DNA of 64,000 nucleotides from Gonatopus flavifemur (lineage: Eukaryota; Arthropoda; Insecta; Hymenoptera; Dryinidae), in NCBI GenBank assembly GCA_018340375.1, contig JAFFJZ010000010.1:5766001-5830000 (forward strand). The letters run 5' to 3'. The notes under the pieces were generated by a model, which saw only the letters and a list, made by a program, of their open reading frames with translations, was not told the origin of the DNA and ran no database searches. The number at the start of each line of letters is the position of its first letter. Position 1 is the first letter of the stretch. Positions 22,693 through 56,387 of the stretch are shown piece by piece. Position numbers and translations under genes: made by a program.

Positions 22693-22710
22693 GTATCGAC
22701 GCCAAGTACA
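22693..22710 (+). promoter_or_regulatory. 18-bp word copy A
   Basis: The sequence is GTATCGACGCCAAGTACA, with the exact 13-base core GACGCCAAGTACA. The flanks are unlike those of the other copies. Confidence 0.7.
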
Positions 22711-23392
22711 CGACAAGGAATATAAAATGTAAAACATAGTCCCTCGCATCTAGATAGATAGATATAATTGTGCGTGTAGTGTGCATCCGTTGACTAGAAA
22801 AGTCCAGAGTTGCGAAAAAAAATGAGCGCACGTGAAACGGTGAGCGTTGCGCTATGTGTACTGTCGTTTCGCGAACATGAGTACACGAGTACAGAGCTAT
22901 CGTCATCGAGTCACGGAAGGAGGGCGTTACATACACGCATGTGCGAGATTGTGTCACGGATGTCATAATCTTGCGTAATTGTAAGCCCAATAGCAAAGAA
23001 TGAATTGAAGGTGATTGTAGTTGTAAGCACTTGTAATGCTGTACGCATGCAGGTGCCACACGGCCACGAATCCACCTCGGTCATACGCCTGACGATTTGC
23101 TTTGGTTCGATCCATTGAATTGTGTCACTGTGAAACAATTGATGCTACATATATTTATAGTTGGGAAACAGAGGAGTTCGATCGCTGAAGCGTTTCACCC
23201 TGTAACGCGTGATGCAATAACAATGATAATGATGATAATAACAGTGCTCGCACCAGTTCTTTTTAGATCACTTTTACTATTATTTTTGTTTCAGGAGATG
23301 CGATACATTAAACTTCACCGACGATCTGAAATTCATGTGAGTTTAGTTTCGAATACTTCTTTCGAATAAGATACTACAAATATTTGAAATCG

Positions 23393-23410
23393 ATATCGAC
23401 GCCAAGTACA
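23393..23410 (+). promoter_or_regulatory. 18-bp word copy B
   Basis: The sequence is ATATCGACGCCAAGTACA with the exact core. It lies 700 bases after copy A in the same orientation. Confidence 0.7.
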
Positions 23411-24737
23411 AAAATCTACTCTCGAATGCACATTCAGTACAAATCGTGAATAATTTGCTTAGATATCTTCATTAATTTACGCGAACTACTTCGCATGAGT
23501 TACTCGATTTGTCCTTGAGAACAATTGGAAAGTGAATTGAAGGGACAATACGATTACGACAAACCAGAAAAGATGAATGAAATATATCATGAGTGAAATT
23601 TCAACACACGAAAACATTTCGATCAATGATATTTTCTATTATTTCCGTTCTACACGCACTCCACAAACTTTCACGAAATCCCATCATCTTCCGAGACCAG
23701 AAATTAAGCGAATTCCATCCTACATTGATATTCCTCAGCAAATCATTCGCATACTAGGACATAATTTATATAAAAATCATGAAGAGGTTGGATTTAACGT
23801 CCACGTGAACCGGTTCGATTTTATAGTCTTGCGAATTTGAAAGCATTTTCGTAAGATCGATTGAGAGAAGGTCCTTCCTATGTGAATCCAATGTAAATCG
23901 AGGCCAGTAATCAAAGAATCCGACAACGACTCACGTGACAAATACAACTCCAATATTTATCTGAGGCATAAATATAAGGAGACACTAAACTTTTATTGCT
24001 TTGGAAATCTTCCACAACCTTCTAATTTATAGTAATAATATTCTATTTTATACTCCTCTAAGATTCCATTTGTGCTCGAGAACACTGAGGGGAATTCTTA
24101 TCCGTGATCCAATGGGATTACCAGAGATTTGTTCTGCTCCTATGCATCGAAGATACTTGAAAACTGTATGTTGTGTTCAGTTGTTATACCCACCTCTACC
24201 ACGCGTTCAAATCACTCGAGTGCAGATTCTCTTAAGTGTGCGAACTGATAATTTCACTGGATTTTACAGATGTTTCCGATATTATATCTGTTGAATTATC
24301 TCCACTCGCAGAGCAGCGAGCAGGAAAAAAGTGTAATGTTAATCGAAAGGTGAGTCGAGGATTGGAAAGTCGAATCGCGATATCATGGGAGTTGGGATCT
24401 GTTTCAGTATTTAGTAAAAGAAAAAAAAACTATTTGAACCACGTCGGTCCAATTAAATTGATTTTCGAATACGATATTTTGTGGATGGCGTGAGAGGGAA
24501 ATAAACAGCGAAAGCCCGTCGATGTGGTGGTACAAACCCATCGTTAGGCCACAAACGAAAGAATATGATTTCGTTTTCATGTTCCAGGGGCGGCTGAAGT
24601 GACAAGCATAACAATGAGACTATAGCAACTTCAAGACCGGAAACGAGGGGGGCGCACGCGTATCCGGTAATGCGGTGCGCGTTCTTTCTTACTCTTTTTT
24701 CTTCTTCCATGTTTTTACAAGGTATTCTATCGATCGG

Positions 24738-24768
24738 TATAAATTGTCGCGACAACATCCGGTCAGTT
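24738..24768 (+). promoter_or_regulatory. Core promoter candidate (TATA plus initiator)
   Basis: TATAAA at 24738-24743 is followed by TCAGTT at 24763-24768, which fits the insect initiator consensus. The initiator A would be 27 bases after the first T of the TATA box, slightly closer than the usual 30-31. The pairing is suggestive because an ATG with a signal-like start follows about 50 bases later. Confidence 0.35.
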
Positions 24769-24814
24769 CGGTATTTTTCTTTTTTGAAGTTTATCCGAAT
24801 ATCTTTTTAGAGAT

Positions 24815-24943
24815 ATGAAGATACTTCTTGCGGTGTGTATTGAACGTAAGAAAAATTTTGTACTTAACCTGGATATGGTTTCTCATGAACTCGTTCTTGG
24901 ACCCAAGATCTCCACATCGGTACTTTGCAGTCCAGAGAAATGA
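24815..24943 (+). CDS. Tiny ORF or first exon, MKILLAVCIE start
   Basis: A 42-codon ORF begins 50 bases after the candidate initiator. Its first residues (MKILLAVCIE) look like the start of an insect secreted protein. A good donor (GTAAGA) follows at 24846, immediately after the tenth codon plus one base. The arrangement could therefore be a short first coding exon, with the rest of the gene further on. I could not identify a matching second exon. Read straight through, the ORF continues as a short, mostly polar peptide ending in PEK. The family is unknown. Confidence 0.25.
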   Translation: MKILLAVCIERKKNFVLNLDMVSHELVLGPKISTSVLCSPEK

Positions 24944-25332
24944 AAACAAGGAGGATTCTTATCTTCGTTCCGTTGTTGAAATATTTTTTTCACCAAATTC
25001 GAGCATAAATTCATTACTATATTAGGTGTGTACAGTTTCTTCACGTTTCACTGTGAAAACGTAAACGTGTCCGAATGGAGAGTGATATGATCTGATATGT
25101 GTATCTGCGGACATCGTATGAAAAATCTGCGATTCGTCTATACGGAGTGTTTATAAACAACGAAATCCCGTTAATTTGAACTATAGACATACTCCAAGGA
25201 GATGAAGTTCACTAATCCACCTACGTATCTATTACCGGTGATGAGAGGAATCTTGTTTTTTTGAGAGAGATTTCAATTGCTGAGTTCCATTAGTAACCCA
25301 CAAAGCATTCTAAAACAGTTCGAGAAGTTTCA

Positions 25333-25350
25333 TGTACTTGGCGTCGAGAT
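25333..25350 (-). promoter_or_regulatory. 18-bp word copy C
   Basis: On the minus strand it reads ATCTCGACGCCAAGTACA with the exact core. Confidence 0.7.
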
Positions 25351-26050
25351 CCTACCTAGAATCAACGATTGAATTTCAATTGAGAAATCGTAAGGAACGA
25401 TCTTTGACAAAATTTATAAGAACTCCCGTTATCTTCCATTGTTCGATATTATTTTTTTCATCACGATCGACGGTATCCCAAACAAGAGAACGTGCTCACA
25501 ATGTGACAACTCAATTTCATCTACTTCGCAAACGGAGGGACTCTGACAAACTGTTTCTACGAAAAGTGATTTTTAACCAATAGTTCTAGATATCTTTTCC
25601 ATCTCTTGGGACAAGGAATCCAGCAGATCTCGAGGTTTCGGATTATTTTTGAAAGTAGCTCACGTATTATTCTTTTTAGCGAGTGACAGGGTGACGGAGA
25701 GACCGATACAGTTGGAATAGAATATGTTCTTCGTGTTACGTGTTACGTGTCGGATGAAGATGAGGAGGAATGAAAATATGGGAGAAACAAAAGGCTCTTT
25801 CAATGCAGAAACGATTCTAAACGAGGAGAAGAGGTCACCTTATCTACGAAATCGTGCTTTCACGTCCCGCAATCTCGCGTAAAAATCTCTTATTCTTATT
25901 CGTGGAGCAACAGGTGCGCTACCTGTGTTCGTCAATGTGTTTGTGGCTTTGAATCGATATATGTGTGTACAAAACGATACCTCACCTCGGCTTAGAGGGT
26001 CCCGGGCTCGCTATCTGATTCCTAATAACTCTGCAAACTCTGGGCGCAGT

Positions 26051-26080
26051 TGCAGTCGTAGGCGCGCGCCTACCGCTGCA
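26051..26080. promoter_or_regulatory. GC-rich 30-bp palindrome
   Basis: GTAGGCGCGCGCCTAC (26058-26073) is a perfect 16-base palindrome. With its flanks TGCAG and CTGCA it extends to 30 bases with two mismatched pairs. It stands in the most GC-rich patch of an otherwise AT-rich island. It could be a site for a dimeric protein. Confidence 0.4.
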
Positions 26081-26813
26081 GTTCACGTTAACGCGCAAGC
26101 GCAAGGGACAAGATTTATTCGGCAACCGCTGTCGAGTATCACTGATGGAATGAACTAACGGAAAGTATACAACAAGAGATTTCAGATATATACATACACG
26201 CGAACACATAATATACCTTGGGCAAATTTTTTTTTAGATCTTGGAATCTGTACGTCGTCTCGCGCATATCGTGGTTCCCAGTTACCTACGGTCAAACCAC
26301 GTCATTGTATTCATGCGCATGTACTTTTTCACTTGCTATAATGGTCAAGATTCATTCACTCTACGTTCAATATTTTATAATGAGCGGCATCTCGTTCAGC
26401 ATCTTTGGATTTAGCGATGAAAAATAATTCACCCTCGAGCAGAATGAATGTATAAGGTGAAAATAGGATATTACCTGAAAAGAATCGATGAGAAATATCC
26501 ACACGCTTATTCGATAAAAGTTTGAAGTTCAAGAACTATTCCTCCGAAATTCCGATATAATAAAAAAGCATTCGCTGAAAAATCACACGATTAATTGGCA
26601 AATAAATATCGAGACTTTCAACTCATTGAAAATCTTGTGAAATTAAAGGAGCGGGTGGATAAAAATATTCATGATCAATATAAATCACATCAAAATATTA
26701 TTATAGATTACGATTTCGTAATGTTGATTCGTATTTTCTGCATAAGATGGAAATAAATTCCTCGTCCGCATAAATTCGATTTCGATCAAGAAGACGAAGA
26801 GGAAGGATGAGAC

Positions 26814-26838
26814 GAAGAAGAAGAAGAAGAAGAAGAAG
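26814..26838. repeat. (GAA)n microsatellite
   Basis: Eight uninterrupted AAG/GAA units, preceded by further imperfect GAA-rich sequence. Confidence 0.9.
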
Positions 26839-28599
26839 TCGTGTAATTTCTTTTCTAAATGTCCATCGGTATGATGCAAGGATTTCATTCATAACCTTTC
26901 CACCCCAGAATATCGTTCTCCGTACCAATCAATTTGAGAAATGATTCAAATCAACGGTGATGAAGAGATGGGATATGGAATAATATTTCATTCCTCCGAC
27001 GTATTCTGGAGATGATTTTTTTCCTTGTATTTGCATTGCAGATTATACGCGGCACACACGTACTATAATTGATTATTCGATTTCAACTTGACAAATATTA
27101 CCAATACTTCGCTCGAAAAGAATTTTGTGAAACGAATTTTGAAATTCAGTGAGAGATTTATTTATTTGAATGAACGAGAGGATACTCCTTGCTCAATTAT
27201 AAAATATGGATAAACAGATCGTTAGATGAATCGAGTGCATTACAGAATCAGGAAGATTGCGACAAGCGTTTCCCTGGTCTCGTTTCCGTCCTTTGGTATC
27301 ATGTCGGTGCAACATTGTGACGGCAGCGGTAGCAGGAACACCAGCAACAACACGGATCAATGCGAACGAGTTGCACGGTTCCACTAACCGCTTGGCACGC
27401 GATCATAGCGTATAGGGGATAGTGTAACTCTGTCGGTCTTCTCACATTGGCAATCGATTGGCAGCGGTGGCGGTAGGGGCTATTACGACAGTGGTACTAT
27501 TTGCTGCATGGTAATGTCAGTAATCGGCCTGCATGCCGGTGTTTCGTGGAATCTGAGTAAAACTTCCAAGAACTTCAGCCAAAGAGAAGACGGACTACTA
27601 AGGTCTGATAAGCATTGGCGTGCGAAGAAGAGATTTTCACAGCGTTTATAGGAAATTCATCGATCTCGAATGGATGATACTTATTAGAATGATAATAGTA
27701 TCTTAAGCATACGTACAGCGTTCTCAGTGGCCATAACAGAGTAAATTACATTTCGAAATCTTGAACTCCGTGCTGTTCGACTCGACTCGTTCATTGTTAG
27801 CGAACAACCTTACGTCTCCATACTGTGGGAGCACGTTTCGAACATAATGTAGTCAACAAAGCGGGTCAACATTGGAACTGAAACTATTGGTTTCAACCAA
27901 TAATTTCTTTGCTCTTTGCTACATTGCATTATTGCGAGGAATAATCATACATTTGTCCGAAGTATTCAGCATTGGCATACTTGCAGGTTGTTTTCGAGGG
28001 CGAATATCTCGCAAATGATGAATGTATGGAGTTGAAATACACAAATCACACTCGGAGACAGAGTTCTCAGGTTTTTATGAGTCGTGGAATAATATAGCAA
28101 CTTACAAGACTGCTGTGGTAGGAAATGTTATAAGACTTTCGATGGGATTCCATAATAATGCGCAGTCAAGTGATGATGATTGTTCGAGATAATGATATAC
28201 GGAGATGAATAACGTTCCATCTATCAAAACTGAAAAATTCTGAGGAATTGAAATATTACACTATTCAACGAGTCAAGGAGTTCTGGTCATCCCTCTGACA
28301 GAAGAGCAGGAGAAATTCAATTTCCCAACAATTCAATAATTCGTAACTGAGAGAACATTCAGGATGTGAAGAAATGTATTTGATTTCCGGCAGACTTGAA
28401 TTTGATATTTCCACCCTTGGGAACGTGCGGTCTTTGTGAGGACTTTTTCAACATCGTATGATAATGAGAGATGTGGAGTTGTGGTGATGAGAAATGCGTT
28501 AGTTTGATCGTGAAACAATCAAAAGTTGCGTGTGCTCTTAACAGGAATATTCTTGGATTCAGTTCTATTTGGGTTTTGATACGAGTAAGGGACATAAGC

Positions 28600-29130
28600 T
28601 TGATTGGACAATTGTATAATCCCGACTTGAAATGATCATCGGGTTAACCTGACATGTAAAGAGGACCTAACAAGGTCATCCGGAATAAGCTATGCCTGCT
28701 AAAATCCTAAACAGGATTATATGTGGATGCCCCAAGTAGAGATAAGCTCATTTGATCCTAACTACCCAATCAGAAGAGTTCGGATGATGCCAATGTTGAC
28801 AACAGGTGCAGTACAGTGCCAGTATTGGGTCTTCAACACTTGGCCAACACATACAGGATCAGTATTGGATACATAGAAATACAGTATTTTGCCTGTATTG
28901 ATAAATCAATACTGAGAGCTTAATTCCGGCCAGGCAGTACATAGTATTAGTACTCAATTCCCAGTACAGAAGAGGGTTATCATCCCAGACAGTAGTGCAG
29001 TACTGCGCCTGTTGTGAATTTCTGTTTGGGTAGGATTCCCTTAAATTATCCTACAAAGTTGGAATAGGTTTCCCTCGCTGTGATCTCATCAGGACTTTAG
29101 TAGGTCATCCTGAGATTATGAACATATTAT
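28600..29130. repeat. Repeat block with CAGTACTG/GCCAGTATTG words
   Basis: The words GCAGTAC, CCAGTATTGG and CAGTATT recur on both strands between about 28790 and 29010. They are bordered by phrases such as CTCATCAGGAC (near 29087) that return at about 31498. The block may be the left part of an older repeat whose right part lies after the mariner relic (31260-31625). It is non-coding. Confidence 0.4.
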
Positions 29131-29868
29131 ATATTTCGATAAATTATAGTTCAATAAAGTGAATACAAAAATGCCTTGATTTTAGATTATATACTCTGTG
29201 ATCAAATGAATTTTTTTTCAAATTAACAAAACATTTGTAAACAAGAGCATATTTCAAGTTTAATATCCCACTTAAAAAGTCCATAGTCCATGACACATAG
29301 ATGGCGTGATTAGAATTTCTTCGATATGATTTTCATTTAGTACTAACCTTCAAACGATACGTGTGTAATTTAGACAGCATGTTGACTATTGATTGCTTTT
29401 TGATGGAACAAATACAGTGGAAACCAAACAATGACTTGATAAACATTATCCGAACTCTGCTCCACCGAGACAAATGATAGAGAAGTGTATTGCTGAATTT
29501 AAACGTGGTCGTACCAGCACCAACGATGCAGAGCGCAGTGGACGCCCGAATGAGATTGTTATTTCAAAAAACATGACAATGGATGAACCATGGCTTCACC
29601 ATTACACACGAGGATCCGAAAGACAGTCAGCTGAAGGGACAGCAGTCGACGAATCGAATTCTAAGCGAGCAAAGACGCAACAGTCGGCCGAAAAGGCGAT
29701 GGCGTTCGTATTTTGGGATGCGAAGGGAATAATATCCATCGACTATCTTCAAAAAAGAACCACCATCAACAGTGACTATTACTGTGCACTTCTGGATCGA
29801 TTGAAGACTGAAATCGCAAAGAAGCAGCCACATTTGCGACAGAAAAGAGTGTTGTTTCACCAAGGCAA

Positions 29869-30960
29869 CACTGTGAAAAAAACTGGAAATTTACTGTGCA
29901 CCTGGACTGGAAATTTCCAGTGTTAGTACTGGAATATGGATATTCCAGTACATGTATATAGATTTTGTCGGTACGGTACTGAAAATTTACCAAGCATAAC
30001 TGAAAATTCAGTCCTTGTACTAGAATTTTTAAGTTTGAGATTGTTTACTGAAATTTTGCCATGATTTCGCGAAAATTTTACTGGCTCATAATACAATTTT
30101 ACAGTTCTTGTGCATCAGGAAAAGTATCCCCTCAATAAGGACTTGGAAAGAATTTGGAATTTAGAGGAAAAAACCTAATCGTTGATATACTGGAATTATA
30201 CAGGTGTTGAACTGCAATTTTCAGGTTGTGTGATGGAATCTTCCTGTTAGCATTAGTTGCAATTAAATTAAACAGGTTTTGAACTGCGATTTTCAGGTCG
30301 TGTGATGAAATTTTCCAGTTGCTATGCAACAGAATTTTTCAGTTATGTTGGAATTGAATCACTGTTGCATTGAAATCTTCCACTTCTATTGGACTTCGTC
30401 ATTTCTGACAGGAAAAATTCCAAGTCTTTATATTAAATATTTCCTGATTGAGATTTTGAATGATAACTCTAATTGTAGCAAACAAGATTGATATATGAGG
30501 TTTTTCAAAGACTTATCCCTTTGTGTATTCTAAATATGAAGTAACCCAAGCTGGCCTTCCAGCATGTCGCGCATGTAGCTCCTCATTTAGGTCTAGGGTT
30601 TCAGTTGGTAGGCAGGTAGGAAAGTGTAGGTTCAAATCCCGTGAGGTAGATATGACTTCCTGTCCATCCATATGAATGATCAAGTTTCTCAATCATCTTG
30701 AAACACAAGAACCGTGCAAAATCACTTCGGGTGAACAATTTTTTTTTAATCTTCATTTATATTTTCAGCATTAATTTTCCAATACATGTCCTGGAAAAGT
30801 CCAGTTCGTGTCCTGAAAATTTCCAGTTTTGATGCCGAAATTCCATAACATTTGTACTGAATTTTTGCAGTACAAATGAGCTAAAATTTTCCGGTATATG
30901 TACAGGTCAATTGCTTCCAGTACATGTACTGGAATTTTCCGATAAAATTCTTCCACAGTG
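29869..30960. mobile_element. 1.09-kb insertion inside the mariner relic
   Basis: The boundaries follow from the interrupted transposase frame. The ends are CACTGTG and CACAGTG, and AA is duplicated outside (29867-29868 and 30961-30962). The inside is filled with degenerate palindromic words of the type ACTGGAAATTTTCCAGT, and includes a tRNA-like segment at 30555-30660. There is no coding capacity. CACTG ends with a 2-bp duplication place it with the other CACTG elements of the window. Confidence 0.75.
30555..30660 (+). repeat. tRNA-derived (SINE-like) relic 1
   Basis: TAGCTC, then CAGTTGGTAGGC, then GGTTCAAATCCC occur in the order of tRNA promoter boxes A and B. About 20 bases are inserted in box A and there is no proper tRNA fold. 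A similar arrangement is at 31690-31790. It is likely a relic of a tRNA-derived SINE carried within the insertion at 29869-30960. Confidence 0.45.
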
Positions 30961-31689
30961 AATGCACCGTGTCACAAATCGATTGAAACGATGTAAAAAT
31001 TGGATGAATTGGGCTTCGAATTGCTTACCCACCCACCGTATTCTCCAGATTTAGCCCCCAGCGACTTTTTCCCTGTTCTCAGATCTCAAGAGAATCCTTA
31101 AGTAATTGCTGGAAAGAAATTCAAGTCCAACGATGAAGTAATCGCTGAAACTGAGGCCTACTAGCATATGAAGAGAAATCGTACTATAAAAGTCGTATCG
31201 AAAAGTTGGAAAATCGCCCTCGAAGGCAACTATGTTGAATAATAAAATCGAGTTTTGTCAAACTTTTGTTCCTTTCTCACTTATCCTACGGACATATCGA
31301 ATGACCTGGTGAGGATTAAGTTAGATTCTTTTACGCCAAATATAACATTTTTGGGTTGCGGATTTTCTGTTCACATCCTAATTTCGAGTTATTCTGGCGG
31401 TTTTGGTATGGGATTCCTCATCCTAATTGGTCTCCCCTGATCAGACCTCTATAATAGTGATTCGTGAGATGATTTGTCAGATTCTGACGAAGTTGCCTCA
31501 TCAGGACCTGGGATGGATCAAGGTTTACTTGATCTAGTCCATGGGGTGAATTTCTAGTCGGGATAGGATAAAAACCCGGAAATTCATATAATAATGAAGT
31601 TCTGAGCCAAAGTTGGAGGGATCATCCGATATGTCAAGTAATCAGCAAGTACATATTCATATATTCTCTCAAGTTGGAAGTTCATCATC

Positions 31690-31790
31690 TCGCGATCCAG
31701 CTCATCGGTTAGGATTCAGGTTTTAGATGAGAGTGTAGGTACAGGCATAGGTTTCAAACCCTGTTAGGTAGGATACAGTTTTTGCTATGA
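31690..31790 (+). repeat. tRNA-derived (SINE-like) relic 2
   Basis: CAGCTCATCGGTTAGG, then GAGTGTAGG, then ATAGGTTTCAAACCCTGTTAGG mirrors the layout of the relic at 30555-30660, including the bases after box B (TGTTAGGTAGGATA against CGTGAGGTAGATA). It is more degraded. The following bases also drift apart. Confidence 0.4.
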
Positions 31791-31949
31791 TTATCTTGAT
31801 TAGTTCTTTGAAATTTTTCGTCTCTTCCAATAAATTTCCCTCCACCCAATGATACTATTTGAGCACTGGCCAGGTTGAAATGCCAGTACCGCGCCTGGTG
31901 CTGTATTGACAAACCCATTATTTCTCGTAATGATCCAGAGTTCCACCAT

Positions 31950-32208
31950 GGCAGGCTTGCGTCAAATATTGGTACCGACGTAGGGGTAAATGTTATACAG
32001 GCTCTCATGTAAAATGATGTTATAATTTTAACTTCTTGGCAGTACCGTCAAAACAACTGGTTCCGTATTGTAAGTTGCGAGTTTGCATGGATTGTAAATT
32101 CTGGGAACAGTGCTCAGCCAGGGCAGGCTCACATCAACTATTGGTACCAACATGGTTAAATGATGTTATCATTTCGATTCCTTTGCCAGTACCGTCAGTT
32201 CAACCAGC
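31950..32208 (+). repeat. Two diverged direct repeat units
   Basis: GGCAGGCTTGCGTCAAATATTGG, then CAGTACCGTCAAAACAAC in unit 1 (about 31950-32060) matches GGCAGGCTCACATCAACTATTGG, then CAGTACCGTCAGTTCAAC in unit 2 (about 32122-32208). Both have GATGTTAT-type words in between. A single related word (GGCAGGCTTGGCTCAGTAC) occurs near 13582. The unit type is unassigned. Confidence 0.5.
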
Positions 32209-32396
32209 CTCTCAATGGCCGCTCTAGATTTGCCAACAATGACAACTCTGGCAACAGTACTCATGGTTGAGTTTTTGATCCATATGCGACAAGAATATTT
32301 CATATACCAACCAAAATCATATGGATCATGAAGAGATTATACATGCAATCACATAAATGTCATATATGGTCCATAAATCATTCATTCTCACCAGAG

Positions 32397-36216: not shown

Positions 36217-36256
36217 ATATATATATATATATATGCATATATACAGCTATATATTT
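36217..36256. repeat. (TA)n microsatellite, interrupted
   Basis: A TATATA run with a few breaks (TGCA, CAGC). Confidence 0.85.
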
Positions 36257-37070
36257 GTAATTATGTATGGTAAGCTATCATAAATGAATCTCAACATTTC
36301 AGAGTTCAAGGTGATGCCTGTACAAATGCTCACTTGTTCACGTAAGGTACTTGAAATGGCATCGAGGCGTCTTACCTACATTATATATCGACCTTCTTTT
36401 GTCCACGATGAATCGATTTCCACCGATGTGAAAGGTTCAGAAGAGTTAATAACCATACAAGTAATGTTCAGCGAGTCGTAATCAATCTAAGAATTTTTAT
36501 AAATCGAGTTGTATTTTATCACGTTACGTGCAATAATATACAATCAAGAAGGTGAGAATAATTGTACAATTATTTCTTTATTGAATTCATTTCTCGGATA
36601 TGAGTTTATCAATCTATGGTCTCATGTTTTTCAAATAAGAATATCAATCGAAGAATTCAAAGTCAAACGATTTCTTATTGATGAAGGGCAACTTGTTTGT
36701 CAGTATGAAATATATATGAGTCTATCTATATCTATCGTTGATAGAATCTGATATAATCGACTAGGGGTCTGAATTCCTATTTTCTACTTCGAAGATTCTC
36801 TCACTCGATCGACGAGATTATACTTTTGAAAACCTTCTATAATGCGGTCTTGCTATTATCAAAGTATCCACAAAAGTAATCACTCTAAAGAGAAAAGCAT
36901 AACGAATTTCAATCATTTTGATTTCAGACTGTGTATATACAGTTAGATCCAAGACCATCATCGTAGAGATATTTTAATTCTCAATGACGTTTGGAGTGAA
37001 ACGTATAGAATATATCATACCTACTTCTTTCTGAATCCTCACTCCGTGTCGTATGTTTTAATGCGATTAC

Positions 37071-37088
37071 ATCTCGACGCCAAGTACA
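37071..37088 (+). promoter_or_regulatory. 18-bp word copy D
   Basis: The sequence is ATCTCGACGCCAAGTACA with the exact core. It lies about 100 bases left of a MITE but outside it. Confidence 0.7.
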
Positions 37089-37191
37089 TCTTCTCAAATC
37101 ATTTTTGAGAAGATTCGAGCTTCAGAAGAAACGAGTGGAATTTTGCAAACACTTTCTTCATAAATTGTTTCATGAATATGAATTTAAAGTA

Positions 37192-37962: not shown

Positions 37963-40900
37963 GTCACTAATCGAAGTATCGGTGAATGCTTCAGAGTTGA
38001 AAATATCTTACGTTTATTTTTATTTTTGAGGTTCCTAGAGTGACTAAAAATATTTCTATGAATTGTATATCATGATTTTGCGAACCTCTCTCTCATCAGG
38101 AAGTAGTCTATCTTGTTTCTAATCTCCACTTTCACTTCAACCACTTCGTTCAAGACGTCGCACGACATTCTGACGTATCACAATGATTTTTGATGTAAAT
38201 TGATTCAAATTGCTACCTCCTCTCTCCTGCACCGGAGTCTATCGAAAGACTCTAGTGGATAGATACGTCACGGTTATCAAGATCATATAGAATTTATGTA
38301 CCCCATCTCAAGAATAGGAGAGATACACTTGAGAATTTCACAATCTTTTGTCACCATGGTTAACAATATCATTGTAATTCCACAATCAGCACATCCATAT
38401 GCAAATGAGTATCGAATATTAGGTTACCTACCGGATCGTCTAACCGATTCAAATCATTCATAAATTGTTTTGACACACCTTCAATGTTCTAGCACGGTTC
38501 TTTATTCAAATATATGCTAGAAAATATTTTGGCGAAAGTTTTGCGTAGAGTTTTTATCGTGTTCCATGTCGCCATATCGCCGATGATGAATCACCATACA
38601 AATTATGATTAGCACGTAACCGTAACCGATACCCCACAGTCGCAAACATGTCGTCAAGAAGGCATCTACCATCAACTAAACGATCTTGGGTCACGCATTT
38701 GAAAAGCACCACAGTTTTATCTGGTTTGCCGATCTCGAGTTGCCAACAACCCAGTGATCATCATCACCGACTTCTGACGGAAACTAGAACCATCATGAGA
38801 ATGAGTTCTATGAAATGTATCATCGGTAAATCTGCTCTCTCTCTCTCTCTGCTCTTCGATTCCTCCTCTTGGTTACTTGAATTTCACAATCTTCATTCAT
38901 TCTGCATCTTAAAACTTGAATATCACGAAATTGATTTACGATCGTGTTGTATAAATTCATTTAGAATGATGATTTATGTATTCATATTCAAGCTGATTTT
39001 TATTCCATGTATATGTATATGTATATAGCAGTTCATAAACTCGTGTGATAAAAACAGAACGGATGGAAACGCGTATGAAAATATTCCTTTGATTCAATGA
39101 GAATGAATTGAAGTACTGTGAAGTTCATAAACTTCTTATCTCAGATGTAAATCATACCTTTCGGAATGATCATTATGAAAATAGGAGAGAAAAATTCACA
39201 CTGGAGGGTGACAGGGGAATAATGGAAATTCAATTGATAGATTATCGGATGAGAAAGTTTTGAATAAATTAAGAAAATAATGGAAGAAGATATAACAGGA
39301 AGAAGAAATAAGTTAATGGCATGTACGTTAGACACAAGAGAATGTTGAAGACCATAATAAGAGGTAAGATGGAGGAAAATTGTACAGGTAAGCCAAGGTT
39401 ACAATATAATAAGGATATCGAGAAGAACATATATGATGTCATAGTTAAGGAAAAATAAAATGATTGGCGTATCGGAAAGCAAAGGAAAGAAAACAACAGC
39501 AAGTGCTTGGTATCAATATACGGTAACATTGCATTGTTATGGATTCCCAATTTTCCTTGTTTTCTCTTCTCAAATGATCCAAGAAATTCTAGTGGGTTAG
39601 TTTTTCAACACTTAAGAGCGTCAATAATTTGAATAAAATGATTTTCAAAAGTTACTACATGATTCAAATACTCAAATTTGCATTCAATAATTGCATTTGT
39701 GGAAAAGAAAAGAGCAGCAAATTTTATCTGAATTTTATAAATCCGTGTTCAGCAAGGTTTTTCTTTCAGCATAAATGCGATTGAGGCATCTTCCACATTG
39801 TTTTTTCCTCCGTGATTTTCAAATCAACTCAGCGTTCCATAACTCTTTGAACTGATAAACAATCAGGAAGTTGTGCGAAAAATCCAAGTAGTCGAGGAAC
39901 ATAACAGTAATCCTACGACTTTAATGTTACAAATTTATTATTACACTTTAGGGCAAATCATAAGTTGCAAGCTTGTATAGTTTCTGTAACGTTAAACTTC
40001 ACACTTCAACGTTACAATCATAGTATTCCTACAATACTTAACGGATATCTAGCACCACATCTCCTGAAACTTTGGGATTCAGCTATGGAACTTCGTTGTA
40101 TTATTTTACAGATCAAAATCAAATTGAAGATTCGATAGTGGTATTCGCATTTTGCGGATATCGTTGCGATTTTGTATCTGCTTGTCAGTAATGTTGTGAA
40201 TTCAATATCACGGGATGTAAGTGAATCACAGTATCATCATGATATTAAATAAACTCCACTTTGCCGTATCGTATCCGTTATGTTACAAACAGGTAAATAT
40301 ATAAATCGTAGCAATTTCGTCGCTTCGATAACCGCGTGTTTCCACGGCTGTAAAAATATAACAAACACAACCTATTGTTATCCTAGTGGTTTACTAGATT
40401 TTTTATCCGTGATGGTATCGTAAATTACAAGCATTTGTTATCCATTTGATAAAAGGATTCCAACAGCTCGCAGGTAATTTTGATTTATGACTGATATGAT
40501 GATTTCAATTCCCATTTCATCGAAATTCCGTATTCATTTAACCACCGACCGACGTTGAAAACTCGGAAAATGTGTTTTTAGACCATAGACGTACTTGGCG
40601 CGTGATGTACTTGGCGTCGAGATGCTACATATCGCACTCCTCTTTTGACATTCCACTCCCACGATAATCTTAACGAATAATACCATACAAAATCGAATAG
40701 AACTATATTTTCTGAAAATCCACAAAGCCCCGATCGTGAGAATTACTCCAGATTGCCTGCACAAGGTAATCATAATACCTTGAAGAAGATAATGAAGGAT
40801 ATACGTATGTATGTGTACATATCACTAACATAATACTGGATATCTAGAATGAGGAACACTCCGAGAGCTGTTACACTCAGATCGCTAACAAAGTGAGGAT

Positions 40901-43995: not shown

Positions 43996-44976
43996 TAGGG
44001 GAAAGTGATCTAACTCGGACTATGTTCTAAGTCGGACCCCCTTATGTTTCTTGAAGACTTTAAACTCAATCAGTTTGCCCGATGCATCCCTAGATACATT
44101 ATTTGGTACTGATCATTTGTCCGCAAATTGACGAATATCAATTCATATTACGATGTTTTTTACAAACAATGATGTGTTTTCAGCACTGTTGCGAAAAATT
44201 TTCTATCTTCGAAAAATCCGTGCAAAGACCTGACTGTTTTGTCCATTTCGAGGCAATTTTTATTCCAGTTTCTTTATGAATTTTTTCGACAGGATTAGGA
44301 CGATATTAGCATCAGTCTGAATCCTCTCTATCTATTCCACGATTACGTCTCTTTTTAAACAATGATATGAGTTATCGACGCTAGAATCCCTAAGTCAAAC
44401 ACGCCAGTATTCATCGGATTCAGAATAATTTTTCTCAACAGTTTTTCCTTGTTGAATGTCAGTTTCCTCTCTATTCCGACGATGATGTAGAGTAGAGTTG
44501 CCTTGGTTGGACCATCGCCTTGGATGGACCACCACCTTTTATTGCCAAAGGAAAAAACTTAGATTTCTTCTGATCATACAGCGATAATGTCACATTAATG
44601 AACATTATCACTTTATGATTAGAAGGAATCTAAGTTTTTTCCTTTGGCAATAAAAGGTGGTGGTTCATCAGTGCTGTCTATGAATCATTGAAGAAAAAAC
44701 CACACGCATACTTTCAAAAGTTCGAAATTTGCAATAAACAGCTCAAAAAATGGGCAGTCCGAGTTGGAACAGGGAGTGGTCCGAGTTGGAACCATTGTTT
44801 CTATTCAGACGATTTATCACCGTTTCTTATTCCCAGCTACAACTCAGAAACGATAAGAGAAATTTGAGGAACTGAAAAATCTTACCAACGGCATATAATA
44901 CAAACCGATTGGTCAATATTGGAGAGTTGAATGCAATAAAAAGAAAAGGGGGTCCGAGTTAGGCCACTCTCCCCTA
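43996..44976. mobile_element. Inverted-repeat element, TAGGGGAAAGTG ends
   Basis: The left end TAGGGGAAAGTGATCTAACT and right end read backwards TAGGGGAGAGTGGCCTAACT match. The word AACTCGGAC and its variants occur repeatedly near both ends (44011, 44027, 44756, 44777, 44951), like sub-terminal transposase binding repeats. It is non-coding and contains a nested hairpin (44523-44669). The first bases resemble those of 45441-47084. Confidence 0.75.
44523..44669. mobile_element. Hairpin MITE nested in 43996-44976
   Basis: Arms of nearly 70 bases pair closely (GATGGACCACCACCTTTTAT on the left and its inverted partner ending GGTGGTTCATC), sharing GCCAAAGGAAAAAACTTAGATT. The loop is only a few bases. 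It is non-coding. Confidence 0.8.
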
Positions 44977-45355: not shown

Positions 45356-45440
45356 GTACAGCCCTAATATTAAAGACACCTCCTTATATTCCTCACTCAG
45401 ACCTAGGTTGTTCGAGCAGTTTGATCGCCACTTCATTTTG

Positions 45441-47084: not shown

Positions 47085-47929
47085 CTTTTTCATTTTGATT
47101 TTGTTCATCAAAAAGTCTTGTGCTGCTTTTTCACTCTGTTATCCAACAATAAGCATCAGAGTATTTTAGTATCAAAGATGCTCAGAGTGAACAAAGACAA
47201 TCATGAGTGAGAGAAAGATCAGAATACAGTATTGAACAGCATGAAAAGATTGTCGAACAGTTTGTGTGAATTTAGGAACTTTGAGATTGAAAATTGTCTT
47301 GGGATTCTATTACAATTAAAATTGGATTTATAGATGTGATTTGGTTATCTTTATAAGGTCAGAGGTGATGAAAACTGCGAGTGGTAGTTGAAAATGTTGA
47401 ACTCAAACCACTTCATTGAATTCGGTTAGCCTGAATGAATTTGGAGAACACAGAACCCGTTCAGTACATTCACTTTCTTTAATACATTTCTTCATTTCAT
47501 ACTGATAAAAAATCACTGTCATACAAAAATTGCAGTGATTATGTCATTGTTATTCGATACAAGAATTTTGCATTTCATAACTAACTTCGACATTGATACA
47601 CTTATTTTAAGTGATCATTCGCGTTTGGTATTATGGGGCAAAGGCGAGACTCCCTTGCACGCTCTTTTAATTTTATTGCGGATGAAACATTTCAAAATAA
47701 CATGTTTAGAAAGTTTTTGGAACATGAAACATTTCTGGGACGTTTCAGAGATGTTATGTTGAAGTATTTCATTCGAAACGTTAGAAATACAAGAGATTAG
47801 CTATCTCTAGGATGTTCCAGCAATATTTCGCAAAATGTCCTCAAGTGGACAACTGGAGATCGAATCAAGATATTTCCACAAACCATCAAAACTTTTCTAC
47901 AAATAGAGGGAGGACCTGTGATGCCGATA

Positions 47930-48197
47930 CACGGAGAAAAAGGAATTCGCTGTGGCAGCGAAATCTACTTTTGCTGGGTTCCTTTTGCCAGAGCAGAAAA
48001 ATTTGTTTGCTATTCTGTATATAATACTGAAAATTTGCTGGCGGAGCAAACATTTTTTGCTGTGACAGCTGAAAAAATTGCTGTCGTAGCTAACACGATC
48101 GCTGTTATAGCAAATTTTTCGCTAGGTCAGCAAAAAATTTTGCTATTCTATATATAATACCTCGATTTGCTGCGTCAGCAAATTTTTTCTCTCCGTG
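47930..48197. mobile_element. TA-flanked MITE, CACGGAGAAAAA ends
   Basis: The ends CACGGAGAAAAA and TTTTTTCTCTCCGTG are inverted, with TA outside each. Inside, a unit of about 90 bases including GCTATTCTGTATATAATAC and TTTGCTG is repeated directly with changes. Small ORFs across it are repeat-derived. The termini resemble the hairpin at 2903-3021. Confidence 0.75.
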
Positions 48198-51100
48198 TAA
48201 TGGAAATAATATAACGACGCTAAAAATGTGATTTTCACCACCTTACAGATATTTTCACGATACAAAGGAAGAGAAAGAAAAAACAATAAAAAATTACTAC
48301 AGAGTTCACGGCTTGTAACTTTAAAAAGAGAGATAAAGGGGAGAAGGAAAGATTGTTATTGGAAGAATGCTTGAAGGGAATTGTACAATCGAAGAGAAAA
48401 TAAAGAGAAGAAGAGAGAATTATTTAATGGGTAAAAGGACAAAGGAGAAGTATGGTTGCAAGAGCGTGAGGGGCGGTAATGAAGAAAAAGGTGACACGTA
48501 TCGGCACGAGGGAGAAAGATATCCCCCAGCACTGAGAGTGCTGAAACACAACACGCAACTGAAGTCAAGGAAAACAGTATATATGTGATAATATGAAATA
48601 AATTTTTGGTTTTATATAAGGTGTGATAGGAAGAGCGATTCCTAAGCGTTACTAACGATATCTATCGAATCTTAGTTGATAGTCACAAAGCGTGCGCGAA
48701 ATGGTGGCTTGAACTGGCGAGTGTCCGGTCGTTTGTAAAATTTGATCACGTAATGCTTTAACGCTTTACATTGAATAGAGCGCGTGTTCTGTGTAGAATC
48801 AAATAGAAGATAGAAGTTAGGGCAGTGCCTTACGTCGTCGTTGCATGTGCGTTTACGCTCATGTGTATGCATACACGAACATGAGATGCAGTTGTCGAAT
48901 CATCGGACAAACCACCTTTGAGAATAATATATTCTGAATAGCAGTTTATGAACCTTGGTGTCAAAGATATTTACGAACAGATAGAACATAGCTGAATTTC
49001 CTTATTGGATAAGTGAAACGTTGAGCTTGCATAATAAATTCAAGTCAAACGGTTCACATTTTACCTGCAAACACAAGATTATGGTATAGTTTCCCTATAG
49101 AGTCATTTGGAAAAATAAAGAATACAGAGGAAAAAGGAATTGAAAGATGTGTTTATGCGCTGCATCTGCGGGAGAAACAAAACACATTGATATGCATTCG
49201 AATGTACTGCTGGCATGTACAGGTGCAATGATTTGCTCGCATCTGAGGTTTCGTGTGCAGATTTTTCTCAGAGCGGATGATGATTGCACCTGTGCATGCA
49301 TTATCTCTGTTCATTTTGATTTCAAGTGACCTTGTGAGAACCGAGAACTCTCGTAATGCACGATTTACAGGGAATGAGCTTCGACATATTCGCGTTTTTT
49401 TATAAGAAATATTTGTTTTATATGGAGGAAACGATTCGATTCGAGGAATTGTTGTCCTTGAATGTGATGACAAAGTGAAATGATGGACCACGATAAGTTG
49501 ACATAATGATTTTTATGAACATTATAATAATACATGGAGGTTCAAGGATGTGTTCAATATTACAGCATTGTGAGAGTTTCTTTGTGATATTTATCGAAGA
49601 TACAAAAGATTTATCGAGCAGCGAAAGGAAACGGACGTTGGAGAGACAAGTGAAAAGGTACAGAAGAAGAATAACAAGAGAAAAAAGTAAAGAGAGTATA
49701 TAATTGTGAGAAGAGTGTTAGTGAATTCTCAGATAGGGCATAAATTGATATGCATTCGGCATTCAACATGTCGGTCGGATAAAAGACCTAAAGCCCTCAG
49801 AGACAATGCCACGTCGTCGACTACAAACTCCTCGTGTATCCGGTGCGTTTTCGAGGAAGCTTTCCGTCGTGCCGTGACACATATTAATTGATCTCCCCGG
49901 GCACAGTTTGATACCTTTGTTTTGTCGATGTTCGATGAAACAAGGATGACGATCCTCCAAGGTATTCGGCAATCATCCTTTCGTCATGATGTTCATAAAA
50001 TTTGGATTTCGAAATGTAATAAACCACCATGGAGACCATCGTAAGATTCTAAATTTCGTATGATATTATATTGATTTATTTGCACTCGTTAAAAATTCGA
50101 CATTTTGTAGCGAATTCAGTGAAGTACAGTGGAGTACGGTGCGAATTTTGTGGGAATGAAATGACGTATTTGGAATGACCCCAAGGGTTGAAATGATTCC
50201 GCCTCCAGACGAATTTGGTTTGATGTAGAACAAGTTTGTACAAGCGAGCGAGGGGGTTTGCGTGTTGTAATAATAACAAAATAATCACAGGTCCCAAATA
50301 ACATACATACTGTACGCATATCTTATTCTCCTTCACCTCCACGTCATATCTCATCCTCGGTAGTGTGTATAGCTTCATCGGATAGCCATACGTGAGCCTC
50401 CTGACGTTTAATGCCCTTGCATATAAACGTAATAGCTCACCCGCTTGGTATCTCTCCGCGAAACGACGCGTTGTCCGCGCATTTAGATCTCGCAGCTTGA
50501 CCTTTGTTGTGCGAAATAACTTGTGCAAAACTTGCGCATAACAGTATGGCGTAGAGCAGCATACGGTCGCTCAAGTTCGTCACGCAATTAGGTGAAGTGA
50601 TTGATTAACAAATCGCTCGACGAATAATGATAGCCTAGCTCTCGGATGAATCTTCCGTTGGAAAAGGAAGTGGTAAAGCTGTATCATAAAGCGTCATAAG
50701 AGGTATGCGTGGGAGTCATTATGTTTCGCGCAGACCGGGAAACAAATGTATTCTCAGACATTGTGTGGAAGATTTACATGTTCTTCACGTGGCCAATTGT
50801 ATATCATACAGTTTTAATACGGAATGTGTTTCATAAGATGACTGATGGGTTCTGGATGGATTCATCAAAATTCAGACTCTTTTTCTTATATCTTCGGATT
50901 ATTCTGGATGAGTGGAGAATTTCTTTCGAATGGACGAGAATTGTTGAAAAATCATGATATGCACGGTATGTGCATAAAATACGAGAACTTCATTTACGCT
51001 TCTCGGATATCTTCTCATTCATTCATGTATTTTAGAATAACTTCTTCATGCAGGTAAGATCATTTCACAACACATTATTTCATTAGGGAATCTTTGGATT

Positions 51101-51796
51101 TATACGAGTTATAATATCTTATCCGTATCCTTTCACTGTTCTGCAATAAAATTTTTATTATTTCTTTCATTTTATAGGACCTGTTGATTGTATTTTCGAA
51201 GGGAATGAAGGATTTTAGATTATTTTTATTTGAAAAACTTGTAATCGAGGTTACTCGGGTGTTAATACGAGTGAGGTCCTGATTGATGAAAGTAGTATAA
51301 AATTCCATGTACAAATCACGTGGAGTATTGTTGAAAGCAAACTTCAAAATCGCGCTCAAGGTAATCAAATTCTTCGCTGGGTCGTAATTCATAATCAAAT
51401 AAAAGATACATCCAAGGGAGATAATAAAACCATTTCAGTAATGGAGAAATTTTTTTCGAACTTTCTATACTTATCTCCAGAGCAGGTAAAATTGTTATTT
51501 TATTATTGAGTAAGGAGTAATTTATCTCCAGAAGAAACACTTAGTCCACTCTGTCAGATCCTTTTGGATGCTGGTTGATCATGATCGCAACCATAATACG
51601 GTCTTCCTTCTGATTCTAAAGCCCTAGAATTTTGGGATGGAGAAGGGCAGTGGAAGACTCTATTATTTCCCACGTGGAAATTCAATATCTCGCCCACGAT
51701 CTCGCGTGGTCCCGCAAAACAGTCTTGCGAATAGTATCGGTTACGAAACAATCTCTGCGAGACTTTGAATTTCCACGCGGGTCGATGTTGTAAATG
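48198..51796. other. Repeat-poor island
   Basis: No transposon structure is seen. The 150-codon minus-strand ORF at 50076-50528 has no recognisable domain and falls in the size range expected by chance. A purine-rich patch at 48260-48600 ends in AATAAA (near 48598). The miRNA-like hairpin at 49213-49299 lies here. Confidence 0.35.
49213..49299 (+). ncRNA. miRNA-precursor-like hairpin
   Basis: The 87 bases fold into one arm-to-arm hairpin. Bases 49213-49229 pair with 49283-49299 (17 pairs, one G:U). After one mismatch and a small internal loop, further pairs run up to 49247/49267, leaving a 19-base loop. About 30 pairs per 35-base arm with small bulges is typical of a pre-miRNA and unlike the perfect hairpins of the MITEs here. 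The 3' arm contains ATTGCAC, the seed of the miR-92/25 family, but the rest does not match that family. Expression is unproven. The minus strand would fold similarly. Confidence 0.35.
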
Positions 51797-51987
51797 TTTG
51801 GAAGTTTTTTACCTAACATTTTTTGGTAATTTCACAAACATAGTGGGTGAAATTACAGACAATTTTTGTCAATTGACAAATCTTTTCTGAGAAAACACAA
51901 AAATTGTTTGAAAATTTACAGAAGATTTGTGAGTTTCCAAACAATTTGGATATTTACCAATCTGTAAGTTTTTCACCATACTTTTTA
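51797..51987 (-). mobile_element. MITE copy 2 of the 13105-13332 family
   Basis: Inverted relative to copy 1, it shares long words including AAGTATGGTGAAAAACTTAC, CAGATTGGTAAAT and GATTTGTCAATTGAC. Its left terminal part is replaced or missing, so it may be truncated or recombined. Confidence 0.75.
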
Positions 51988-52235
51988 GTATTATTCATTG
52001 ATAATGAGGATGCTGAATAATCGGGAATTTTTAATAACTACCCTGAGAATAATAAGTTTCCAGAATACAAAATTACCATCCGTACCAATTGCCATTGTTT
52101 TGCTTTTGCAGAAATTTTCAATGATGTATCTAAAACAATCTGATATGTTTTCAACTCATAATACTGTTCTAAAAAGTATTTGAAGATTCCCCGAAGGAAA
52201 AAATATGACATGATATTTGTAAAACCTGTATCATA

Positions 52236-52393
52236 CACTGAGAAAAGTGAACTGTAACCATTACCATGCGAAAATGGTAGTTGAATAACAGAATCTCTAA
52301 GTTGATGATGGCGATCACCGAAACCAAATTCGCGAAGTTGTCCCCCAACTACTATTTTTACATGGCAATCATTACATTCCACTTCTCTCAGTG
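52236..52393. mobile_element. CACTGAGA-ended MITE, TA-flanked
   Basis: Arms of about 48 bases are inverted relatives (CACTGAGAAAAGTGAACTG and CACTGAGAGAAGTGGAATG), continuing to GTAGTTG in both. TA lies outside each end. It is 158 bp, the same size class as other CACTG elements. Confidence 0.8.
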
Positions 52394-53390
52394 TACTTTG
52401 ACAAATGAGTAGGAAAATTTATTCTTCTGAATATGTCAAATTAAACTATTATATTCTGGAAGAAAGAAAACTCTGTTCCAAAAATAGAACAGAAGATTAC
52501 ATCAAAATTCAACCCACAATGTTGGAAAAATCCAAGCAACCAAGGAATAGTAAGGGATATCTTCTCTTCTAAAATTTATCTACGAATACTAAAATACATT
52601 TCTAGAAAATTTCCGGATCAACAAGATGACGAGATTCGCATGTGAACTTAGATTCCCACTCGAGCAGCCGAGTCTCTACTCAAGAAATTGATTTCTACTT
52701 CAAGTAATTTAGAGAGTAACTTCGATTGGACCTCAGCTAAACAACTATGAAGTTGTAATATTAGATATTTTCGAAATTCTCGATTTCCCGATGGAGGAAG
52801 TGATGTAAATTATCAAATCTTCAGAATGAGAATAATACAGATTTTAGTACCAACTTGATCGAAACATTGGAAGTAAAAATTCACTCGGTAAACCGCGAAT
52901 GAAATATTATCTGATGTTATCATTCGCAAAGGATTAAGTTACGTTGATTTTGTCAGAAACATTCACTTCCTTCCAAACTTATATCAATTAACGGGAATTT
53001 TATTGCCTGTTCAGGAAGGTCAAAATGTTTTGATAGGAATTTGCGAGAGTATCCTTCAGAGCATAGATTCATTCACCTAGATAACAAAATCCTACCGCAA
53101 AGTATTTGAACTATTCGCAAGCAACTTGGACCGATCTTTGAAAATGTAATTTAAATGTTGACCGAACGAATACCGATATCTAGAATATCCAGTCAAACGA
53201 CAATGGATAATGAGAGGGTTAACAACGAGCTGGTTAAACTCTCATTAAACATCCTTTTCTCCTTTTATTATCATGCTCTATCATCTACGATACGTTTTAT
53301 TCTTTTCGAACTCGGGAACATAATTGCTCTGTAGCAACAAATTCACCCTTCCTTGGCTGTAGAATTTCGAAACACCAGAGACGCAGCATC

Positions 53391-53408
53391 GTATCGACGC
53401 CAAGTACA
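53391..53408 (+). promoter_or_regulatory. 18-bp word copy F
   Basis: The sequence is GTATCGACGCCAAGTACA with the exact core, identical over 18 bases to copy A. Confidence 0.7.
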
Positions 53409-53517
53409 CGATGGCGAAGATTTTTCTCATCAAACGAATGAGGTTTTTTTTCTCTCGAGAATGAATGTTTCAAGGGTTTCCACGTTGATTCCATCATAAG
53501 TGATATTTTTATACGTT

Positions 53518-53531
53518 ACAACTTGGCGTCG
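53518..53531 (-). promoter_or_regulatory. 18-bp word, degraded copy G
   Basis: On the minus strand the core reads GACGCCAAGTTGT, 11 of 13 bases matching. It faces copy F from 110 bases away. Confidence 0.4.
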
Positions 53532-54056
53532 TCAATCTATGAATCTGAAACGGAAGAAGTTGGAAGTACAGGTACATAATAATGATGATGATACTAATAA
53601 TGAAATCGGATCTATTAAATGAATGCGTGAGTGAATGCGATGATTGTATTTGACTGAACATAACGAAACGTATAAGATCCACGCCATGATGCGTTCATAT
53701 AATGCACCAGCTAGCGATTCATTACGACTCATATGTGCAGTCACGTATAATACTTATATGCATATATCTTCTCGAACGCATTTGTATCCTTCCTGCCAGG
53801 TTGGTACAAGGATTAACGTTGACGTCAACATCTTTATAGTAAACCAAATGTATTGAAGTCAGCTTCATGACTGAAGAACTCCGCGAAGTAAAGTTTCGCC
53901 CTATAAAGACTAGAACATCATTACATCTTTGAAATATTCCTATTCGAATGGAGAGGAGTATTGATAATGCTTTTCGATTAATCTTGATTTTTGAATAAAA
54001 AAAACTGAGATTAACATTGAATGACTCCCCGACTTGGACAAATTCAAGATGAGGCA

Positions 54057-54071
54057 TAGGTACCTCACGTG
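54057..54071 (+). promoter_or_regulatory. Shared word TAGGTACCTCACGTG, copy 2
   Basis: Identical to 17890-17904 and similar for six further bases. It contains CACGTG. Confidence 0.3.
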
Positions 54072-56369
54072 GAGTGTGATAGAATTAGAAGTGGATACCC
54101 TCATTTTCGTTGTTGCGGCGATCTTATTAGTCGATGCGAGAACGAGCGTACTAAAACTCACGAATCCCCTGAAAATATATATCCCTACTACGCACATAAA
54201 TAACAGAGATTGAAATCAAGAATGATAATTCAAGAAACAAATAATCGTGAGGTAATAGAGAGCAATCCACTTCCCCTGCTACTCGAATCCAGCGGGGTGG
54301 CGATCGATTTACACTCTTGCCACAGGTAGGTGGATACTCCCTACCGTAGTCGTATTTGTGATTTAAATCATGAATTAAAAAGAGGCACCGGGAGATAACG
54401 TAGAAGGCGTAGAGTGATCGAACGAAAGAAAGGAAGAAAAAATGGAATGAGAACAAACGAAACAAAACGATGAAAACTTTTTCTTCCGTTTCGTTTCGAG
54501 AGATGGTCTCGCAGCTCTCAAACTCGATTCGAACGGACTGCTGTAGCTGCTGGTGGAGCGGCTATCTTCGATCGTGCCAGGGCAACCAATTACGTTTCCT
54601 GAACCGGAAAACGTCGGTGGGTCGGTTCGTCGGTTGGTCGGATGTATTCCACGACCACGAGGCGAGCACTCAGCTTCAAATTATAAATCAGGCGATAACC
54701 CACGGGCGGTCAGTTCTCTTCCTCTTTCTTATGGAACTTACGAAGAAGAAGAAGTCGATCGAAGAAGACTACAACAGTGAGATCGTGAGGGGCTTTTAAG
54801 CTCGTACATCACTAGGTGGGTTACGCCTCCTGTATTTGCTTAGTCGTCTTGGTCAGTTCAGTTGGCAGTGCTCGAGTAGGCGCGGATAAGCCACAGAGAT
54901 GAAACAATTAATAATCACCGCAAGGCCGAGAACCAGGAGAAATCCTCCTTTCGCCCTCATCTGCTTGTATGATATATACGTACATAAACATATACATGTT
55001 TACAGGTATACAATTCAAATGTGGGTTCTATTTGCTGATTACTATCAGTTATTCGGCTCGATCAGGTTCTTCGGTCCTGATCAACAGGATAATTGAATAA
55101 TTTATTGGAAATCAAAGCCCATTTTTCAGGAATATCGATTCAGGGGGAGATTAATTTTATGAAACAAACTCTACGTAGGAATAATGTATACAATTTAAAA
55201 ATCGATTATTGAAAATTTTGATAAAGTTACTTTGCAATCGATATTGTCATTCGATTCATCGGTTTATTGTTATTTCTTGTTCAAGGACATTCGAGCATCG
55301 GAAGAAGCATGTCAAATTTTCCATCAACTTCTTTCATAAAATTACATGATACAAATATAAATTGAATAATAATTGAAAACATGCTTGAGGTTAGACTCTG
55401 AATATAAAATTCAGTTTCCTCATGATCATTTTGAGGGATCAGAAAACGCTGGGTGAAAATGTATTCCAGTGAACTGCAGTATGAATAATTTTGATTAGAG
55501 TTAATCAATCACAAATTTCTGTTAAATAGTATGATCGATAAGAGAGAAAGAAATTCAAAGCTATGTGAAATCTAAATTAATTTACATTCTTCAGTAGTTT
55601 TTGTGGTATTAAAACCAAAAGAGGTTGAAATCATCTTATGGAATATAAAAATCGTTTTTCATTACATTTCTAAAGAACGTTATGTAGATATCTTGATTTT
55701 CAGTGTATAGAGCGATCGTACTACTGTGAGCATTGTTGCATCTCTACAGGCGCTGCATAAAATCAACGAGCACACATCCAGTAGTCACGTTCCGAGTGAT
55801 ATGAAAAGAGCTGTGCCAGACTGGTAACGAATATTCTCCAACGATAACTACGCGAATGAAGATATTATTTCTCCATTAAATTTTCCATCACATTTTTTCT
55901 CGTTATTTTCACATCAGAACTGTTGTTTTTTTTTTGTTCGTCTAATTTCATAATTGAATAAGTATCTATCAAATATAAACTTCATCCCATAATTGCTTTT
56001 GTGTACTTGAAAATGAATTCTGTTTGCCTGTTTTGTATTGCACTTCAACTTCATTCCAGCTTGAGTTGTTCAGGGTTGCGTGCAATCTTTGTTCAGCATC
56101 ATTGATTCAGTGCAATTTCTCATGTACCGTTCGAACGTGATCACGCCCATCTAAAAACTGAACTGATACTTATTTTTCATTGCAATTCTGACAGGGTTTA
56201 TTGATATTCAGCCACCAGAGATACCCGATTGAGATATTTCGAGTAATAAATTTGGTAGGAGGAAGAGTTGTATTTCTAGAATTTGCATCTTCATTGATTT
56301 TAATAGATTCTGATAGATCTTAAGACGGAATGAAACGGATATTGTTGGGGTATTGGAAGATGGAGAATG

Positions 56370-56387
56370 ATCTTGACGCCAAGTACA
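56370..56387 (+). promoter_or_regulatory. 18-bp word copy H
   Basis: The sequence is ATCTTGACGCCAAGTACA. The 13-base core is exact; one flank base differs (T for C). Confidence 0.65.

Follow-up and report, generated by a model that had tools for sequence, protein, structure and literature searches.

A cluster of sites sharing a long DNA word in one domain of the Gonatopus flavifemur genome, and its link to the end of a dispersed repeat

Why should one exact 13-base word, GACGCCAAGTACA, recur seven times on both strands of a single 64-kb stretch of the genome of the dryinid wasp Gonatopus flavifemur? The stretch, referred to throughout as the window, is C2:5,766,001-5,830,000 in an assembly of 636 Mb and 402 contigs. 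Here we show that the seven copies are the cores of sites up to about 29 bp long, that such sites are strongly concentrated in one domain around the window, and that a dispersed mobile repeat carries the same word at its end. We put a probability of roughly 0.48 on the reading that the window holds long sites bound by a protein, a homotypic cluster selectively kept in one domain and perhaps partly derived from transposon ends. Protein binding, selection, and an insulator-like role are what we infer, and the alternatives are weighed below alongside the evidence that bears on each of them.

Seven long sites and their concentration in one domain

Exact copies of the core stand at 22698 (+), 23398 (+), 25333 (-), 37076 (+), 40606 (-), 53396 (+), and 56375 (+), and five bases fitting RTMTY lie directly upstream of the core in all seven, bearing out the initial annotation on both counts. 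No copy with one or two core mismatches was found in the window, while 100 dinucleotide shuffles averaged 0.75 matches each (maximum 4) when up to two mismatches were allowed. Genome-wide, the 13-mer has 730 exact copies and its reversed control one; RTMTY joined to the 13-mer, allowing up to one mismatch, occurs 1161 times and its control three times. Fifteen viral contigs carry one copy of the word each, which we put down to chance.

We examined 77 sites, comprising 70 in 68 fetched loci on contigs C1-C16 and the seven in the window. These are the first 77 of 100 listed places in contig order, leaving out 23 later listed places and 630 unlisted ones, so that the sample is non-random and holds exact 13-mers only. 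At 43 of them the word stands at the end of the dispersed repeat, and the other 34 are termed isolated, a boundary that we set ourselves at 10 or fewer repeat letters among the 18 positions left of RTMTY (-23 to -6 relative to the core). Six of the window sites are isolated and one, 53396, falls in the repeat class. The isolated sites share the ~29-bp motif rTAGCRTMTCGACGCCAAGTACAYGAAAA; among their flanking columns, scanned from -40 to +44, 12 differ from composition, all of them between -10 and +17. The sites of the window, given as 29-bp intervals, and one degraded copy beside them are as follows.

22688..22716, + strand: isolated site 1; 18-mer at 22693-22710, GTATC plus core; 30.0 bits
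23388..23416, + strand: isolated site 2; 18-mer at 23393-23410, ATATC plus core; 26.7 bits; flank P 0.068
25327..25355, - strand: isolated site 3; 18-mer at 25333-25350, ATCTC plus core; 38.3 bits, the best in the window
37066..37094, + strand: isolated site 4; 18-mer at 37071-37088, ATCTC plus core; 26.7 bits; flank P 0.068
40590..40602, - strand: degraded tandem copy with 3 core mismatches, 3 bp from site 5; in neither score list
40600..40628, - strand: isolated site 5; 18-mer at 40606-40623, ATCTC plus core; 30.7 bits
53386..53414, + strand: site 6; 18-mer at 53391-53408, GTATC plus core; 12/18 repeat-end positions
56365..56393, + strand: isolated site 7; 18-mer at 56370-56387, ATCTT plus core; 29.5 bits

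Under a first profile the scores are all-or-none, with the seven at 29.9 bits or more, the next match at 13.2, and the best matches of six simulated sequences at 9.9-13.6. A second profile, trained on 21 isolated sites from outside the domain and the source of the bit scores listed above, again ranks the window sites first (26.7-38.3 bits; the next match has 12.0, and the best matches of four simulated sequences 9.6-16.2). On its flank letters alone, 12 of the 14 sites in the domain have P<=0.015. Two degraded copies had also been proposed, and each was seen with three core mismatches; for the copy at 53518 (minus) the two profiles give 5.5 and 12.0 bits, inside the simulated backgrounds.

Alignment of the +-1500 flanks of the window sites is limited to ~19-35 bp around the word, save for window stretches that overlap one another. 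The earlier statement that flanks do not align beyond 18 bases therefore stands in so far as the window flanks are unrelated, but falls short for the isolated sites, which share letters from about -10 to +17. The proposed position in repeat-poor islands was judged against the repeats of the 68 fetched loci only: the nearest one lies 636 bp from 22698, 1336 bp from 23398, and 325 bp from 56375, and none was found within 3 kb of 37076. At 25333, 40606, and 53396 the nearest match to those loci is the word itself.

The clustering is strong. The domain C2:5,282,718-6,219,657 (~0.94 Mb) holds 14 exact 13-mers, most of them inside the ~29-bp motif, against 1.1 expected from the genome average; nine of these fall in C2:5,720,661-5,822,375, and the window is the densest point, with seven in 64 kb against 0.07 expected. 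A pattern that avoids the repeat picks out 36 places genome-wide, six of them in a 0.34-Mb part of the domain (~0.02 expected), and the RTATY variants pick out nine, five of them in a 0.36-Mb part (~0.005 expected). The sole other pair closer than 50 kb among the 36, C323:17.4756/17.4770, has flanking letters in common. Recognisable repeat ends are not abundant in the domain, which holds no exact copy of the repeat's hairpin where about one would be expected. At one isolated site lying 0.5 Mb away from the window (locus L052, ~1478-1513), two cores stand head to head as an inverted pair, TGTACTTGGCGTC and AACGCCAAGTACA separated by 10 bases. The orientation of neighbouring sites and a likeness of the word to the start of U1 RNA were considered and set aside.

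A dispersed repeat ending in the word

At the 43 repeat-class sites the word lies subterminally in a dispersed mobile repeat whose consensus begins at -23, with the hairpin GAGACGC-GGTA-GCGTCTC directly preceding the core. Its copies have a fixed left end, related bodies of at least two families reaching more than 1.4 kb, and a ragged other end; exact hairpins number 660 genome-wide. A check for target-site duplications at 42 sites, made without a shuffled control, gave 5-6-bp matches at seven and none longer, with one site lacking an end call and six at which the repeat reached the limit of the fetched sequence. In three copies whose first 1.5 kb was translated, no reading frame inside the element is longer than ~110 aa, and the eight Rfam matches on four repeat loci were all under the gathering score. 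In two loci, L048 and L058, the word occurs a second time, inverted and lacking the hairpin; in L058 this additional copy lies within a nested foldback element. This foldback-like element (L058:2176-3006) has 204-nt arms of 96% complementarity, which hold two CCAAGYACA versions.

The assertion that the word does not come from a repeat element cannot be upheld in general, because 43 of the 77 sites end the repeat, yet six of the seven window sites show no clear element. In the same way, the longer shared consensus that the initial annotation would have taken as the sign of a transposon is found in the repeat class and not at these six. Beyond the word, a repeat-profile search gave no clear body match at these six, and 53396 stands apart by its flanking letters. 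This site agrees with the repeat end at 12 of 18 positions (background P ~1e-4 for one trial) and, although not listed by the repeat-profile searches, is probably a decayed transposon end with an intact core. Matches of the repeat profile to other window sites comprise a weak one at 22698 (E 0.006, covering the word and 27 bp beyond) and one at 23398 (E 0.53). Two pieces of the repeat end, GGTAG and TGAAA, are retained at 25333, and the six isolated window sites together show a slight excess of repeat letters at -23 to -11 (23/78 against 19 expected).

Could the window sites, then, be ends of several low-copy or extinct mobile families that share a short subterminal word, brought in by nested insertions without host function? 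We regard this as possible though doubtful. That the word terminates a repeat with more than one body family, that L048 and L058 carry it twice, and that 53396 resembles such an end are all as this explanation would have it; so are the pairs 23398/25333 and 37076/40606, which face each other as element ends do, and the repeat letters kept at -23 to -11 by the isolated class. A precedent exists in Helentrons, some families of which are less than 70% identical and have near-identical subterminal repeats (PMC4067079). Set against this, no hairpin was found upstream of the isolated sites (the score averages 4.24 there and 4.26 in shuffled sequence), the E 0.006 match at 22698 is the nearest thing to a body match at the isolated window sites, the 201 bp around 37076, the sole site of the seven whose flank was so checked, are single copy in the genome, and all 13 bases should rarely survive in old ends.

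Decay in the repeat, retention in the domain

How well the core survives in the repeat itself offers a measure of neutral decay. Where the two lists cover common ground, an exact 13-mer adjoins 18 of the 45 exact hairpins (0.40, 95% range 0.26-0.56), and the neutral prediction from the reverse ratio is 0.39 when based on the 43 repeat-class sites or 0.26 when based on all 77; repeat copies therefore give no clear sign that the word is specially protected in them. In the window, 91 of 91 core bases are intact, while the adjoining positions -23 to -6 match the repeat at 50 of 126, against 31 by composition. For a relic decayed to that flank identity, the chance of still having an intact 13-mer is 6e-6 to 6e-5, so the window cores call for a different explanation, the simplest being selection on a putative binding site. 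The contrast between neutral decay in repeat copies and retention in the window is thus supported but not proven, and constraint on the core above neutral decay appears to be favoured within this one genome.

The same figures bear on the idea that the sites are neutral leftovers, decayed repeat ends whose cores are intact by luck and were picked out by an exact-word search. The number of exact hairpins makes many more decayed ends likely, our ascertainment was on exact cores, and some isolated sites in other places are probably such leftovers. At the survival chance per relic just given, however, very many relics would be needed, and the window has no copy with one or two mismatches; we consider this explanation very unlikely.

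Several observations nevertheless weigh against selective retention. The constraint is deduced from a single genome, and the collection was limited to exact 13-mers, which favours intact cores. The cluster P values and expectations are post hoc, the 36 repeat-avoiding places still include a few indel-shifted repeat ends, and the missing hairpins of the domain make a weak argument when so few were expected. Our class boundary strips shared letters from the left of the core and not from the right. At two of the seven window sites, 23398 and 37076, the flank letters are not significant, and the agreement at 53396 is the sole trace of transposon descent in the window. Isolated sites as a class exceed chance in repeat letters at -23 to -11 (141/442 against 108 expected, z 3.7), and therefore some of them are decayed repeat ends. 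Around 26 isolated loci, near-miss cores number seven in 78 kb (0.84 expected, P 2.8e-5), an excess that speaks for local clustering of the word, though some of them may likewise be decayed repeat ends; the window lacks near misses of one or two mismatches, unlike these other loci.

Under the reading that we prefer, of a selectively kept cluster, a sequence-specific protein, probably multi-finger, would recognise the ~29-bp motif; some sites, with 53396 as the best case, would derive from transposon ends; selection would keep the cores in the domain; and the homotypic cluster could serve as a regulatory or architectural platform of the domain, made up of insulator, tether, or recruitment sites. 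The long insulator-type binding site first proposed for this locus thus keeps the unrelated flanks, the all-or-none core, the ~29-bp word, the clustering, and the single-copy flank at 37076 in its favour, and loses its independence from transposons; an insulator role of the sites is putative. An outright host takeover of a transposon-end word, in which a protein, possibly element-derived, binds the ~29-bp end sequence and keeps the domain together by way of ~14 preserved sites as hundreds of copies elsewhere decay, is in our estimate unlikely. If the cluster is what we suppose, one genome would contain both the word-bearing ends of a mobile element and a single domain retaining the word, which would give a direct handle on the origin of insulator-like or recruitment networks; the coordinates are exact and open to testing, and the decaying element copies serve as a control class within the same genome.

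The CpG observed/expected ratio is 1.11; a six-frame Pfam scan of the window (30 stretches) gave mariner Transposase_1 only and no host gene, and Rfam at its gathering threshold and a tRNA scan gave no matches in the window. Broken mariner-type transposase pieces, differing in sequence, lie at 9960-10343 (+) and 29435-29923 (+), and short-loop inverted repeats resembling miniature inverted-repeat transposable elements lie at 2133-2441, 44523-44669, and 20498-20609 (arms of 56-143 nt, 87-93% complementarity). The domain is not a homeobox cluster, because none of the 95 homeobox matches is on contig C2; a run of them on C13 resembles a Hox cluster.

Comparison with known systems

CTCF-type sites combine a long motif, a multi-finger protein, and use in both orientations, and the window sites are likewise long and on both strands, though the letters that we take to be the CTCF motif do not match the word. 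Su(Hw) is nearest in form among known insulator sites, and we consider it very unlikely that we are dealing with this insect's version of it. What we take to be the Su(Hw) core letters of Drosophila agree with the word in part only, and the sites described here are rare and nearly invariant, where Su(Hw) sites are presumably many and degenerate. On the opposite strand, however, the word has AT-rich, central, and GC-rich parts and a similar total length. The Su(Hw) site is described as a ~26-nt compound built from an AT-rich, a central, and a CG-rich module, and the mobile element gypsy carries repeated copies of it (PMC5825117); our sites are alike in being long, compound, reiterated, and borne by a mobile element. 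The protein itself is older than insects (PMC5094011, PMC5825117).

The repeat invites comparison with the Helentron/HINE (DINE-1 type) architecture set out in PMC4067079. In L048 and L058, the copies in which this was seen, one of them holding the nested foldback, its subterminal repeat is short and inverted and the hairpin is confined to one end; the check for target-site duplications gave no long ones, and diverged bodies share the terminal word. It differs in its ragged other end and in its distance from helitron-type genes: PF14214 has at least 151 matches in the genome, and none of the 18 on C1-C57 is within 15 kb of an exact hairpin. The window sites, moreover, are mostly not recognisable elements. 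Six PF14214 matches on C32, C99, C106, and C175, with identical scores of 190.5 bits and long open frames, suggest recent helitron copies.

The last parallel comes from Drosophila, where the ISX element brought sites that bind the dosage compensation complex to many places on a new X chromosome (PMC4384637). This parallel bears on a further explanation, that the long word might serve meiotic pairing, dosage-type recruitment, or recognition by a transposon-derived host protein; the peaked cluster on one contig and the ISX parallel speak for such a use, to which we assign a slim chance. ISX sites lie inside element insertions, and here six of the seven window sites are without a clear element. 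In both cases, a dispersed mobile element bears the word, a binding word in ISX and a candidate one here, and sites accumulate in one part of the genome.

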